The notes below the pieces were generated by a model that worked only from the letters and a program-made list of their open reading frames with translations, did not search any database and was not told where the DNA came from. Position numbers and translations under genes: made by a program. A stretch of DNA of 45,566 nucleotides from contig JAGQHB010000069.1 of assembly GCA_020432045.1 (NCBI GenBank), forward strand, positions 1 to 45,566, read 5' to 3'. Positions 22,240 through 26,072 of the stretch are shown in pieces (the first letter of the stretch is position 1; each line of letters starts with the position of its first letter). This DNA comes from Dehalococcoidia bacterium (GTDB lineage Bacteria; Chloroflexota; Dehalococcoidia; Tepidiformales; Tepidiformaceae).

Positions 22240-22635
22240 ATGTTTAAGGGAGTCGATCACGTCGTCATCGCCGTCAAGGACCTCGATGAAAAAGTCAAAC
22301 AGTACGAGGCCATCTACAGTCAGCCTGTCAGCGATCGTAGCGAGGCTGCCGCCGCTGGCATGGCCATGGCCTTCTTCCGCTTCGGCGATAGCTACATCGA
22401 ACTTGTTTCCAACCTCGGCGCTGAAGGCCCAATCGCCAAGCGCCTCGAGAACCAGGGCGAGGGTGTCCACCTCGTCGCCATGAAGGTAGACAACATCGAA
22501 AAGACGCTTGATGACCTCCGCGCCAAGGGTGTCCGCCTCGTTGGAGACCCGGGCGCCGGCAATCCCGTGAAGGGCCAGGTCTTCATTCACCCATCCGTAA
22601 CAGGCGGCGTGCTCACACAGATCGTCGAGCGCTAG
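22240..22635 (+). CDS. VOC-fold protein, methylmalonyl-CoA epimerase-like
   Basis: 131 residues, the length of methylmalonyl-CoA epimerase, a vicinal-oxygen-chelate fold. Expected metal ligands are H7 (VDHVVIAVKD), H77 (GEGVHLVAMKVDN), and a pair in the repeats; E54 lies in SYIELVS. The last block reads HPSVTGGVLTQIVER, where the typical epimerase has Glu at the Gln position, so the metal site may differ and the call is not certain. Epimerases of this type link propionyl-CoA to succinyl-CoA; no mutase or carboxylase is nearby. The frame is open far upstream, but the GGAGG ribosome binding site before the ATG at 22240 and family similarity fix the start. It ends at a strong palindrome. Confidence 0.78.
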   Translation: MFKGVDHVVIAVKDLDEKVKQYEAIYSQPVSDRSEAAAAGMAMAFFRFGDSYIELVSNLGAEGPIAKRLENQGEGVHLVAMKVDNIEKTLDDLRAKGVRLVGDPGAGNPVKGQVFIHPSVTGGVLTQIVER

Positions 22636-22715: not shown

Positions 22716-23474
22716 TCAATTCGCGGGCGTGAAGCTCACGAGTTTCACCCGTTCGTCGCCGCCCTTGACCTTTACTTCAAGGATCACGCCCACGCCTGGC
22801 GCGTAATACTTTTCCTCGACGAACTCCGGGTCCAAAGGGGTCCATTCCCTGATCACGACCACTTTTTCGTAGGCCGTTCCTTGCACGGTTTCTTTGCCGT
22901 CGATCTTCTCGATTCGCGCGAGGTCTTCGGCCTCTCCCTTGGAGTACTCCTGCCGGTAACTCTTATTCACCACCGGCTGCGCCCACATCGCGATGCCCGG
23001 AAGTGCGCCGTCGACCCCGGCTTCCCAGGCTCCGTTGTGGTCAATGATTTTGCCGTCTTCGTATTCGGCAGTGTCCTCCCCGAGGTACCAGACATTCCCG
23101 TCCTTGTCCTGGGCGTACCAGTCCCACGTGTCTTCAACGAGGTCACCGTCTTCGTACACGGTGTCCCGGACGACAGTCGCGGTGATGCCCATTACCACGC
23201 GGGTCTCGCTCAACACTTCGACCTCGATGCGTTCGGTGCCGTCTTCCGACTCGTAGACCCAGCGGTTGCCGGGCCTAAACGGCAGGTACACGTTATCGAT
23301 TCGGCCTACGAAATCGGCGGGGTCCAGCACCGGCGCATAGTTCCCTCCGTCTCCCGGATCGATCACCGCCCCGGTACTGCTATCGGCCGCGCCGGCGCTC
23401 GTTTCGTCTCCCCCACACCCCGCGAGTAGCGCGGCCGTGAGCACCCCTGGTGCTGCCAGTGCAGCGAACTTCAT
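22716..23474 (-). CDS. Putative lipoprotein of unknown function
   Basis: 252 residues. A signal peptide of about 19 residues ends in the lipobox ALLAGC, with C20 as the lipidation site, followed by a low-complexity linker rich in D, G, S and T. The rest is beta-rich and acidic (YLPFRPGNRWVYESEDG, WDWYAQDKDGNVWYLGED, KYYAPGVGVILEVKVKGGDERVKL), a pattern seen in secreted beta-sheet proteins. I do not recognise a named family. The ATG at 23472-23474 has a GGAGGGA ribosome binding site; a start 12 codons earlier is less likely because it would lengthen the signal. It lies 60 bp after the PepSY gene on the same strand, behind the two-component system, so it may be part of that response. Confidence 0.8.
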   Translation of the reverse strand: MKFAALAAPGVLTAALLAGCGGDETSAGAADSSTGAVIDPGDGGNYAPVLDPADFVGRIDNVYLPFRPGNRWVYESEDGTERIEVEVLSETRVVMGITATVVRDTVYEDGDLVEDTWDWYAQDKDGNVWYLGEDTAEYEDGKIIDHNGAWEAGVDGALPGIAMWAQPVVNKSYRQEYSKGEAEDLARIEKIDGKETVQGTAYEKVVVIREWTPLDPEFVEEKYYAPGVGVILEVKVKGGDERVKLVSFTPAN

Positions 23475-23534: not shown

Positions 23535-23888
23535 CTAGTCCTCGTCTTCCGCCCCAACCACCTCGCCCGTGGCCGCGTCGACCTTCACGTCTTTGTTTCC
23601 AACGTCCACGTTGAACACGAGTCCGGTCTTCCAGTACTCGAGGTCGACTTCGCCGATGGAACCGCTGGCAGCCGTCTGTGCGGCGGCAATCGCTTCGTCG
23701 AGCGTGATCCCCGCCAGCGGGAGCAGCTCAGCACCGTCGTCCAACGTCCCCGGCGCCACGGGCGCCTCGTCGTCGTTGCCTCCCGCCCGAGCCCCCTGGG
23801 TGAGTGCCGTAATAGCGCCGCCGGCGAGGGCGAGAAGTGCCACCGCGCTCACGCCCAGCAGCAGTCGTCGTTCAAGGATTCGATACAT
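23535..23888 (-). CDS. Small PepSY-domain membrane or exported protein
   Basis: 117 residues. An N-terminal hydrophobic segment (about 9-30, LLLGVSAVALLALAGGAITAL) acts as signal or anchor. After an acidic linker comes a PepSY-like domain (about 57-112): ITLDEAIAAAQTAA, VDLEYWKTGLVFNVDVGNKDVKVDAATGEVV. PepSY proteins are outside the membrane and are thought to restrain proteases or sense the envelope. The frame is open upstream over the intergenic operator, but the ATG at 23886-23888 with GGAG upstream is the natural start. It follows the sensor kinase gene by 80 bp that holds a regulator-type direct repeat, which suggests it is the first target of the neighbouring two-component system. Confidence 0.85.
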   Translation of the reverse strand: MYRILERRLLLGVSAVALLALAGGAITALTQGARAGGNDDEAPVAPGTLDDGAELLPLAGITLDEAIAAAQTAASGSIGEVDLEYWKTGLVFNVDVGNKDVKVDAATGEVVGAEDED

Positions 23889-23900
23889 GGTTCTTGCTCC

Positions 23901-23969
23901 GTTTCCGGGCTCTGGTGCCCTGCCACGAAACATCCCACGCCGGTATGAGCAGAACATGAGCCCGGAAAC
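23901..23969. repeat. 12-bp perfect inverted repeat between the kinase and PepSY genes
   Basis: GTTTCCGGGCTC (23901-23912) and its exact complement GAGCCCGGAAAC (23958-23969) are separated by 45 bp. One arm ends at the stop codon of the kinase gene; the other lies in the predicted leader of the PepSY mRNA. The spacer holds the direct-repeat operator and the -10 box. In a read-through transcript from the kinase gene the arms could pair into a long stem, as a terminator or mRNA stabiliser. Confidence 0.6.
23929..23961 (-). promoter_or_regulatory. Promoter with response-regulator direct repeat, PepSY gene
   Basis: Read on the minus strand: GCTCAT, 5 bp, GCTCAT (23945-23961), a direct repeat with 11-bp period as bound by OmpR/PhoB-family dimers, then 10 bp, then GATGTT (23929-23934) as a weak -10 box. 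The response-regulator gene has the same repeat at the same distance from its -10 box. Confidence 0.55.
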
Positions 23970-25372
23970 TATTCGCGGATGTTCCTCGCCGGAATTCGGA
24001 TTTCGAACGTCGCGCCGCCAAGCCGTCCCGGCGAAGTGACCGTCACCCAACCCCCGTGCAACTCCGCGACCGCCTTCACGATCGCCAGTCCTAGACCAGT
24101 CCCACGTTCTGTCCGGCTGGCGTCGAGCTGCCTGAATCGTTCGAACACGGCCGCATGAAGGTCCTCCGGAATACCGGGCCCGTCGTCGCTCACGGAAAGG
24201 AACACTTCGCCGTTGGTGCCGCGGGCCAGTACTTCAACGCGGGTAGCGCCTTTCGCGTGCAACGCCGCGTTCTCCACGAGGTTGAGCAGGGCCTGCCCCA
24301 GAAGGTCCTCGCTGCCGCGCATCGTGAGCGGCTCGGCATCGATGGCGACGACGAGGCCCGGATAGCGCTCCCCAGCCTGCAACGCCACGCCTTGTGTCAG
24401 TTGTTCCAGGTCGACATCGGCCTCCGTCAGATCGACGGAGGCTGCATCCATGCGTGCAAGCGCCAGCAGCTGCGTCGTCAGTCTGGTCATCCGCTGCGCC
24501 TGCGCGTGGACGGCGTCTAGCGTCCGCCGGTAGTCCTCGCCGTCTCGTTCACGGCTCAGCGTCACATCGATCGAAGCCTCGATAGCAGCGAGCGGCGTCC
24601 GCAGCTCGTGTGCTGCATCCGAGGTGAACTGCCGTTCGCGTTCCACCAGCGCGGAAAGCCTCCCGATCATCCGGTTGAAGGTCCGGCCCAGCCGCCCCAC
24701 CTCATCATCGACGGCGTTCTCCTTGATGCGCCGGTCCAGCCGTCCTTCGCCAATTTCTGCGGCAGTCGCCGTAATCCGATCGATGGGCCTCAGCGCCCGC
24801 TGCGCGATGAGAAACGATCCGCCAGCCACGGCCGCTGCCGTGATGGGCACGGTCACCAGCAGGATGGTCCTCAGCAGGCCCAGGGGCTCGGCTACCGTCG
24901 AATCATCAAGGCCGGTCACGATGGCGCCCGCGACGACACCATCACGGAAGATCGGCGTCACGCGGTAGCGGTAACGGTCGGCCCCCTCCGGGTCCACGGA
25001 TATTTTCTGAACGTTCCCGGACGCTATCGCCTTCGCTACTGCCGAAGATTCGCGTGACGTCGTGGCTACAAGCGGCGTTCCGTCCGCCACGACCACGCCA
25101 GCCCGGTCATATAGCCGCAGTACGGCTTCGCCTTCCGCTCGTTCCTCGCCTGCGTCCGATTCGAGCGAGAGGACCGGCTTTTCGCCCTCGAACGAAACGA
25201 GCCGGACGTCGGGCACTGCCCGCTGTCTCAGGGTGTCATCAAGGTTCTCCCGCAGTTCCACCTGGAACGCGATGTACACGGCCACGGACATCGCAATAAG
25301 CAGCGTCGTCGTGACCCCGAAAATGGAGGCCGTGATCTTGGTCCTGATCGAAAGCCTATCCAGCAGGCGCAT
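23969..25372 (-). CDS. Sensor histidine kinase of a two-component system
   Basis: 467 residues. The first membrane helix is at about 13-37, an extracytoplasmic sensor region at about 38-165, the second helix at about 166-190, then a HAMP domain (RALRPIDRITATAAEIGEG onward). The dimerisation domain has phospho-acceptor H255 in SDAAHELRTPLAAI, and the ATPase domain has N, G1 and G2 boxes (NLVENAALHA, DDGPGIPE, GTGLGLAIVKA). It autophosphorylates and passes phosphate to the regulator encoded just upstream, whose gene overlaps it by 17 bp. The signal is unknown. Together with a PepSY protein and a lipoprotein downstream it looks like an envelope- or metal-stress sensor, by analogy only. Confidence 0.94.
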   Translation of the reverse strand: MRLLDRLSIRTKITASIFGVTTTLLIAMSVAVYIAFQVELRENLDDTLRQRAVPDVRLVSFEGEKPVLSLESDAGEERAEGEAVLRLYDRAGVVVADGTPLVATTSRESSAVAKAIASGNVQKISVDPEGADRYRYRVTPIFRDGVVAGAIVTGLDDSTVAEPLGLLRTILLVTVPITAAAVAGGSFLIAQRALRPIDRITATAAEIGEGRLDRRIKENAVDDEVGRLGRTFNRMIGRLSALVERERQFTSDAAHELRTPLAAIEASIDVTLSRERDGEDYRRTLDAVHAQAQRMTRLTTQLLALARMDAASVDLTEADVDLEQLTQGVALQAGERYPGLVVAIDAEPLTMRGSEDLLGQALLNLVENAALHAKGATRVEVLARGTNGEVFLSVSDDGPGIPEDLHAAVFERFRQLDASRTERGTGLGLAIVKAVAELHGGWVTVTSPGRLGGATFEIRIPARNIRE

Positions 25373-26033
25373 CGAGCCGGTAACCCGCGCCCCGTACCGT
25401 CCGAATCAGTTGTGCGTCGAACGGCGCATCAACCTTCTTCCGAACGGCGTACACCAGCACGTCGATGAAGTTCGACTCCGCTTCCAGTTCCAGATTCCAG
25501 ACATGCTCCGCCAGCATCGACCGCGTCACGACACGGCCGGCGTTCCGCACCAGGTACTCCAGCAGGCTGTATTCCTTCGCGGTGAGCGCGATTTCCGTCC
25601 CCCTGCGCATCACCGTTCGCGCCGCGGGGTCAATCGAGAGGTCTCCCGCCTCAAGCGTTCCCGGGGCTCCTCCGCCGCGCCGCAACAGTGCCCGCACACG
25701 GGCCAGCAGCTCCGCAAACGCGAATGGCTTCACGAGGTAGTCTTCCGCGCCCGCATCGAGACCGCGCACACGGTCCGCGATGGTGTCTCGCGCTGAGAGG
25801 AAAAGGATCGCCGGGCCGGGCGATTTTTGCGCTCGCACTCGCCGGCAAACTTCGAGTCCGTCCAGTCCCGGCATCGCCACATCGAGAATGAGCACGTCGT
25901 ACTCGACCGCCTCAGCAGCGAGCAACGCCTCGGTACCGTCCGCTACGGTGTCGACCGCGTACCCGGCTTCCGTCAGTCCACGCGTCACGAACTCGCGAAT
26001 CGTGGGTTCGTCCTCGGCGAAGAGCATCCTCAC
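25356..26033 (-). CDS. OmpR/PhoB-family response regulator
   Basis: 225 residues. The receiver domain (1-115) has acidic pocket E7-D8, phosphorylation site D51 in LILDVAMPG, and the K in YLVKPF. The winged-helix DNA-binding domain (about 130-222) has LTAKEYSLLEYLVRNAGRVVTR and ends in RTVRGAGYRLD, as in OmpR-family regulators. The GTG at 26031-26033 is the likely start, because TAGAAT lies exactly 6 bp upstream; an ATG two codons later (26027) is an alternative. A direct repeat of the type such proteins bind lies just before the -10 box, pointing to autoregulation. The gene overlaps its kinase by 17 bp. Confidence 0.95.
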   Translation of the reverse strand: MRMLFAEDEPTIREFVTRGLTEAGYAVDTVADGTEALLAAEAVEYDVLILDVAMPGLDGLEVCRRVRAQKSPGPAILFLSARDTIADRVRGLDAGAEDYLVKPFAFAELLARVRALLRRGGGAPGTLEAGDLSIDPAARTVMRRGTEIALTAKEYSLLEYLVRNAGRVVTRSMLAEHVWNLELEAESNFIDVLVYAVRKKVDAPFDAQLIRTVRGAGYRLDAPAG

Positions 26034-26072
26034 GGAATGATTCTAACGTCGCAGTCTGAGCGGCAGATGAGA
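26034..26072 (-). promoter_or_regulatory. Autoregulated promoter of the response-regulator gene
   Basis: Minus strand: TCTCAT, 5 bp, GCTCAG (26056-26072, 11-bp period), 10 bp, TAGAAT -10 box (26040-26045), 6 bp, GTG start. The repeat sits where the -35 box would be, which is usual for activation by an OmpR/PhoB-type regulator. It matches the repeat before the PepSY gene in 10 of 12 positions. Confidence 0.6.

Follow-up and report, generated by a model that had tools for sequence, protein, structure and literature searches.

Two direct repeats in the 45,566-nucleotide stretch of Chloroflexota DNA analysed here (the window) are very probably genuine tandem half-sites of the adjacently encoded response regulator (RR), which would activate from them its own operon with the sensor histidine kinase (HK) as well as the gene of a small exported PepSY protein, together with a putative lipoprotein gene, in a module of the DbfQRS type. 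This explanation builds on computed sites, spacing, orthologue conservation and genome enrichment, from which we infer binding, activation, feedback by the PepSY protein and co-transcription of the lipoprotein gene. The control type is already well known and the window system is a fresh example of it rather than a different type, so that the interest lies more in the conserved module and its paralogous regulon than in the repeats alone. For a two-component system of an uncultured lineage, the analysis provides a predicted regulon with exact candidate sites.

The module and its candidate promoters

The genes and sites of the module are compiled in Table 1. Membership of the regulator in the OmpR/PhoB family is indicated by its matches to PF00072 (E 4e-29) and to the winged-helix domain PF00486 (E 3e-25), as well as by a direct-repeat operator of about 11-bp period located upstream of a -10 box. 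Judged by its sequence, the regulator is a member of this family but of no named subfamily. The best-scoring named subfamilies are CztR/SilR/CopR for the RR (TIGR01387, including CusR/CopR/CzcR) and the corresponding kinases for the HK (TIGR01386), yet both proteins stay below the curated cut-offs with 243.8 versus 279.2 bits and 215.4 versus 292.6 bits, respectively, and no metal-export genes were seen next to the window system. The PepSY part of the small exported protein is 65-71% identical to proteins of genomes G229 and G205.

Table 1. Genes, candidate operators and -10-like boxes of the two-component module in the window.
Feature	Position	Strand	Details
Response regulator, OmpR/PhoB family	25356..26033	-	225 aa, GTG start; Pfam Response_reg and Trans_reg_C
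Sensor histidine kinase	23969..25372	-	467 aa, overlaps RR stop codon; Pfam HAMP, HisKA, HATPase_c
Small exported PepSY-domain protein	23535..23888	-	117 aa; Pfam PepSY (PF03413), E 2e-7
Putative lipoprotein	22716..23474	-	252 aa, ATG 23474; possible read-through regulon member
Candidate operator, RR promoter	26056..26072	-	TCTCAT-CTGCC-GCTCAG direct repeat, 11-bp period
-10-like box TAGAAT	26040..26045	-	10 bp past RR operator, 6 nt ahead of GTG (26033)
Candidate operator, PepSY promoter	23945..23961	-	GCTCAT-GTTCT-GCTCAT direct repeat, N5
-10-like box GATGTT	23929..23934	-	10 bp past PepSY operator; weak match

At both sites, the positions of the repeats and of the -10-like boxes as well as the spacings N5 and N10 agree exactly with the original prediction. 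The RR operator occupies the short gap between the stop of a glyoxalase-like gene (26078) and the regulator, while the PepSY operator begins 7 bp past the kinase stop codon. TAGAAT is a good -10 box fitting TANNNT; GATGTT agrees with TATAAT at just three of six positions and is separated from the PepSY start codon (23888) by 40 nt. No sigma-70 -35/-10 pair was found between positions 22600 and 26500, as expected of activator-dependent promoters. Because the TAGAAT box follows the operator and precedes the start codon so closely, the regulator mRNA is probably leaderless; the same -10 spacing occurs in the two closest orthologues, L048 and L036.

The lipoprotein gene has no operator of its own in the window. 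As it lies only 60 bp past the PepSY gene and no terminator was detected in this gap, read-through is the simplest reading, making control of the lipoprotein by the regulator via co-transcription plausible.

Conservation of the sites in related bacteria

Equivalent repeats precede related regulators. The operator of L048 (RR 75% identical to that of the window) reads CCTCAC-CTGTT-GCTCAG-N10-TACGAT-N6-ATG, that of a paralogous system on contig C36 of the same genome (70%) CTTCAT-CCACG-CCTCAG-N10-GAAGAT-N7-GTG and that of L049/G004 (65%) ACTCAC-GGTCC-GCTAAG-N11-CATACT, with looser matches at L008/G058 (59%), namely CTTCAT-CTGAG-CTTAAT-N10-TATGCT, and at some further regulators. In a set of 126 distinct regions upstream of related regulators, 26 had an exact 6-mer repeat with a period of 11, compared to 3 to 6 regions for each other period between 7 and 16 and 2.6 for shuffled sequences. 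For a loosely defined half-site motif, the combination of gap 5 and spacer 10 was present in 27 of the 126 regions, which is the top gap-by-spacer cell ahead of the next with 11; the control rate was 0.9% for random stretches of 120 bp and 4.3% for ORF-upstream regions. The 11-bp period and N10 geometry on which the original prediction relied are thus present but not peculiar to the window regulator, being common in its relatives and also found at the E. coli arn promoter.

The recognition helix NFI(D/E)V is nearly identical in the window, C36, L048 and L049 regulators. Regulators with this helix use CTCA(T/C) with SCTNAG half-sites, while those with NV(I/V)DV mostly use TTCAT, a small-sample hint that the half-site code may follow the recognition helix. 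At L206 (2440-2640), a related regulator and a lipoprotein gene diverge, and the gap separating them contains about six (G/A)TTCAG half-sites arranged with an 11-bp period, three per direction.

In six of seven cases (the window, C36, L048, L049, G111 and G229), the operator was furthermore found before the secreted-protein gene that follows the kinase or belongs to the same gene island; in the seventh, G016, PepSY genes follow the kinase and no matching operator site was found. PepSY is replaced by a small acidic exported protein after the kinase in L048 and L049 and elsewhere on the contig in C36, the respective operators being ACTCAT-N5-GCTTAG-N10-CACGCT, GCTCAT-N5-GCTAAG-N10-CATCAT and GCTCAT-N5-CTTCAG-N10-GACGCT. 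True PepSY proteins follow the kinase in G111 and G229, preceded by three successive half-sites with an 11-bp period, the last of them 10 bp ahead of the -10 box. Since the signal-peptide regions of these secreted proteins are alike and the acidic ADTDxIEE(E/Q)CG motif of the PepSY-less proteins recurs in the PepSY proteins of G111 and G229, they appear to form a single family in which the PepSY domain is optional. Small exported proteins of the ADTDxxEEQC type are encoded at L153 (3711-4262), L154 (3866-4477), L149 (10947-11264) and L048 (3039-3359), all of them either following a kinase or preceded by the shared operator, and only some of them carrying a PepSY domain.

The order RR-HK-PepSY-lipoprotein seen in the window recurs in G111, which belongs to another family, and the pairing of PepSY and lipoprotein is kept in G111 and G205. 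As the pair of G205 comes without regulator or operator site, its link to the system is not a strict one. In G005 and G009, the lipoprotein gene and a related regulator gene are divergent neighbours separated by repeated half-sites.

These equivalent sites before the corresponding genes of related bacteria make the operators look real, whereas a chance origin, in which the geometry was noticed as two sites happened to resemble each other, is highly improbable. It could draw on the genome-wide behavior of the exact pattern KCTCAK-N5-GCTCAK, for which five matches in the 3.48-Mb genome compare with two for the reversed pattern, a difference that is not significant, so that the literal 17-bp pattern alone proves nothing. 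A variant ending in HAT, which fits the PepSY site, was not enriched genome-wide either (three matches versus two in the control). The exact pattern originally proposed is too narrow and too near chance level to predict a regulon; three of its five matches lack a -10 box at N10, and the window pair are the only ones that have it. A matrix built from six sites of relatives and none of the window put the two window sites in first and second place among about 91,000 positions, and a second matrix from 13 non-window sites ranked them first and second again with 18.0 and 14.6 bits, followed by a third-ranked place with 14.1 bits that lacks a -10 box. Markov-resampled windows contained a mean of only about 0.08 sites of that score with NANNNT at N10. 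In leave-one-out scoring, the L008/G058 site was not recovered among the top matches. Chance is largely refuted by the conservation of the sites before orthologous genes in several genomes, both for the regulator and for the secreted protein, and this conservation together with the independent ranking by the relatives' matrices supports the original assignment of the repeats as operators of the adjacent regulator.

Comparison with known systems and proposed mode of action

The enterobacterial PmrA (BasR) box is described as (C/T)TTAA(G/T)-N5-(C/T)TTAA(G/T) (PMC10729948, PMC3973317, PMC4660055), with two half-sites bound head-to-tail and the -35 element located at half-site 1 (PMC4660055, PMC3973317). 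At the E. coli arn promoter, the arrangement is CTTAAG-GTTAA-GTTAAT-ATTCTATCCT-TAAAAT, combining N5 and N10 (PMC10729948). The window sites resemble this layout in their two 6-bp direct half-sites of 11-bp period, in the OmpR/PhoB dimer expected to bind them and in the distance to the -10 box, which at arn is also exactly 10 bp. They differ in their half-sites, CTCAT/CTCAG rather than TTAA, so that the agreement with the PmrA consensus is limited to the N5 geometry. The regulator moreover scores 182.5 bits against the PmrA equivalog NF007928 (NCBIfam) with its cut-off of 330, the host belongs to the Chloroflexota and the predicted regulon includes no demonstrated LPS-modification target. The regulator probably works like PmrA at the promoter but falls below the score set for PmrA itself. 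The recurrence of the PmrA-type layout, an N5 repeat and N10 to the -10 box, in distant relatives with other half-site letters, apparently following the recognition helix, is of interest beyond the window.

This PmrA-like layout makes positive autoregulation plus activation of the PepSY gene the best reading. Autorepression by response regulators occurs as well, and the regulator might repress rather than activate from these sites, but we consider this improbable because the sites take the -35 place at a distance of 10 bp to the -10 box, a geometry known from activated promoters of the PmrA type, and because no -35/-10 pair for sigma-70 accompanies them. For activation, a phosphorylated RR dimer would bind head-to-tail on YTCAT-N5-SCTCAG in replacement of the -35 box and recruit RNA polymerase to the -10 box that follows after 10 bp. 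It would in this way activate its own RR-HK operon, probably as a leaderless mRNA, as well as the PepSY gene, from which transcription would continue into the lipoprotein gene.

The closest precedent for the role of the PepSY protein is DbfQ of Vibrio cholerae, a small periplasmic PepSY protein that binds the sensor domain of DbfS and shifts the kinase towards phosphatase activity; the dbfQRS operon is under positive feedback, and PepSY-kinase modules occur across phyla (PMC12714742). The window likewise encodes a small exported protein with PepSY as its only domain, no more than four genes away from an HK and an OmpR-type RR, with export judged from the sequence. It differs in that its PepSY gene follows the kinase under its own operator, while DbfQ is encoded upstream in a shared operon. 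By analogy to DbfQ, the exported protein would most likely feed back on the sensor domain of the kinase, or it may handle a cell-envelope or metal signal. Pseudomonas BqsR, which binds clusters of direct repeats TTAAG-N6-TTAAG (PMC4682146) and adjoins PepSY genes (PMC12714742), shares the 11-bp period, but the half-site codes of both DbfQRS and BqsRS differ from that of the window. An initial look at the literature for PepSY in combination with direct repeats or with QseB yielded nothing useful. The window system connects PepSY accessory proteins that have conserved operators of their own with kinase systems outside the Proteobacteria.

Sites on contig C36 and the wider regulon

The sites of the clade fit YTCAT-N5-SYTCAG, for which the exact pattern used before is too narrow. 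A revised consensus drawn from the found sites, YTCAN6SYTHAG-N10-BANNNT, was employed in pattern searches for the regulon and matched the own genome eight times, but not once when reversed, compared to a mean of about 0.8 matches in 37 other genomes of the family. Seven of the eight fall on C36 (G000; L149, L150), the 23.6-kb contig carrying the 70% identical paralogous system, where they precede the genes of the RR and of the small acidic secreted protein, a lipoprotein gene with ABC transporter genes behind it, the genes of an LPG_synthase_TM, a DUF347 and a large membrane protein, and a GtrA gene next to that of a PMT_2 glycosyltransferase. With a PAP2 gene in their neighbourhood, the LPG_synthase_TM, GtrA and PMT_2 genes are reminiscent of regulons for envelope modification, which is a further point of resemblance to PmrA; a phosphatidylglycerol lysyltransferase-like gene also lies close to the C36 sites. 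In G231, which belongs to another family, the operator precedes orthologues of the C36 lipoprotein and LPG_synthase_TM protein. As the patterns were shaped on some of the found sites, the enrichment is partly circular, and the fair test consists of the C36 sites outside the first pattern and the G231 sites.

The regulon first ascribed to the window system is supported for the operators before the RR and PepSY genes, plausibly includes the lipoprotein without a site of its own and is probably shared with the paralogous system on C36. It is unlikely, although less so than repression, that the window sites are real operators with the C36 paralogue as their main or joint regulator in a shared or cross-talking regulon. 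The shared operator preceding the C36 regulator, the six further sites on that contig and the near-identical NFI[DE]V recognition helices of the window, C36, L048 and L049 regulators, unlike those of TTCAT-using relatives, would fit such an arrangement, whereas the window sites adjoin the window system's own genes and many such two-component systems autoregulate. Besides, C36 is possibly mis-binned: its GC content of 64.1% equals that of the genome and its tetranucleotide profile is closest to the own contigs, but with a correlation r of only about 0.6. We put forward tentatively, at somewhat below even odds, that the two paralogous systems share one code, YTCAT-N5-SYTCAG-N10-NANNNT, and a PmrA-like envelope regulon, in which each would control a variable secreted protein (PepSY optional, with a common signal-peptide region and sometimes ADTDxxEEQC) as a feedback or sensing partner.

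Most single matches of the revised pattern in relatives were discarded, lacking good target genes; one in G231 (contig C102) apparently lies inside an mraY-like gene, and those in G004, G017 and G058 are ambiguous as regulon sites. On contig C14 of G058, two operator-pattern matches (L166 and L170, at 4968 and 6872) lie within 2 kb, 0-7 nt ahead of the ATG of a lipoprotein and of a small heavy-metal-domain-like protein, which suggests another leaderless target pair.
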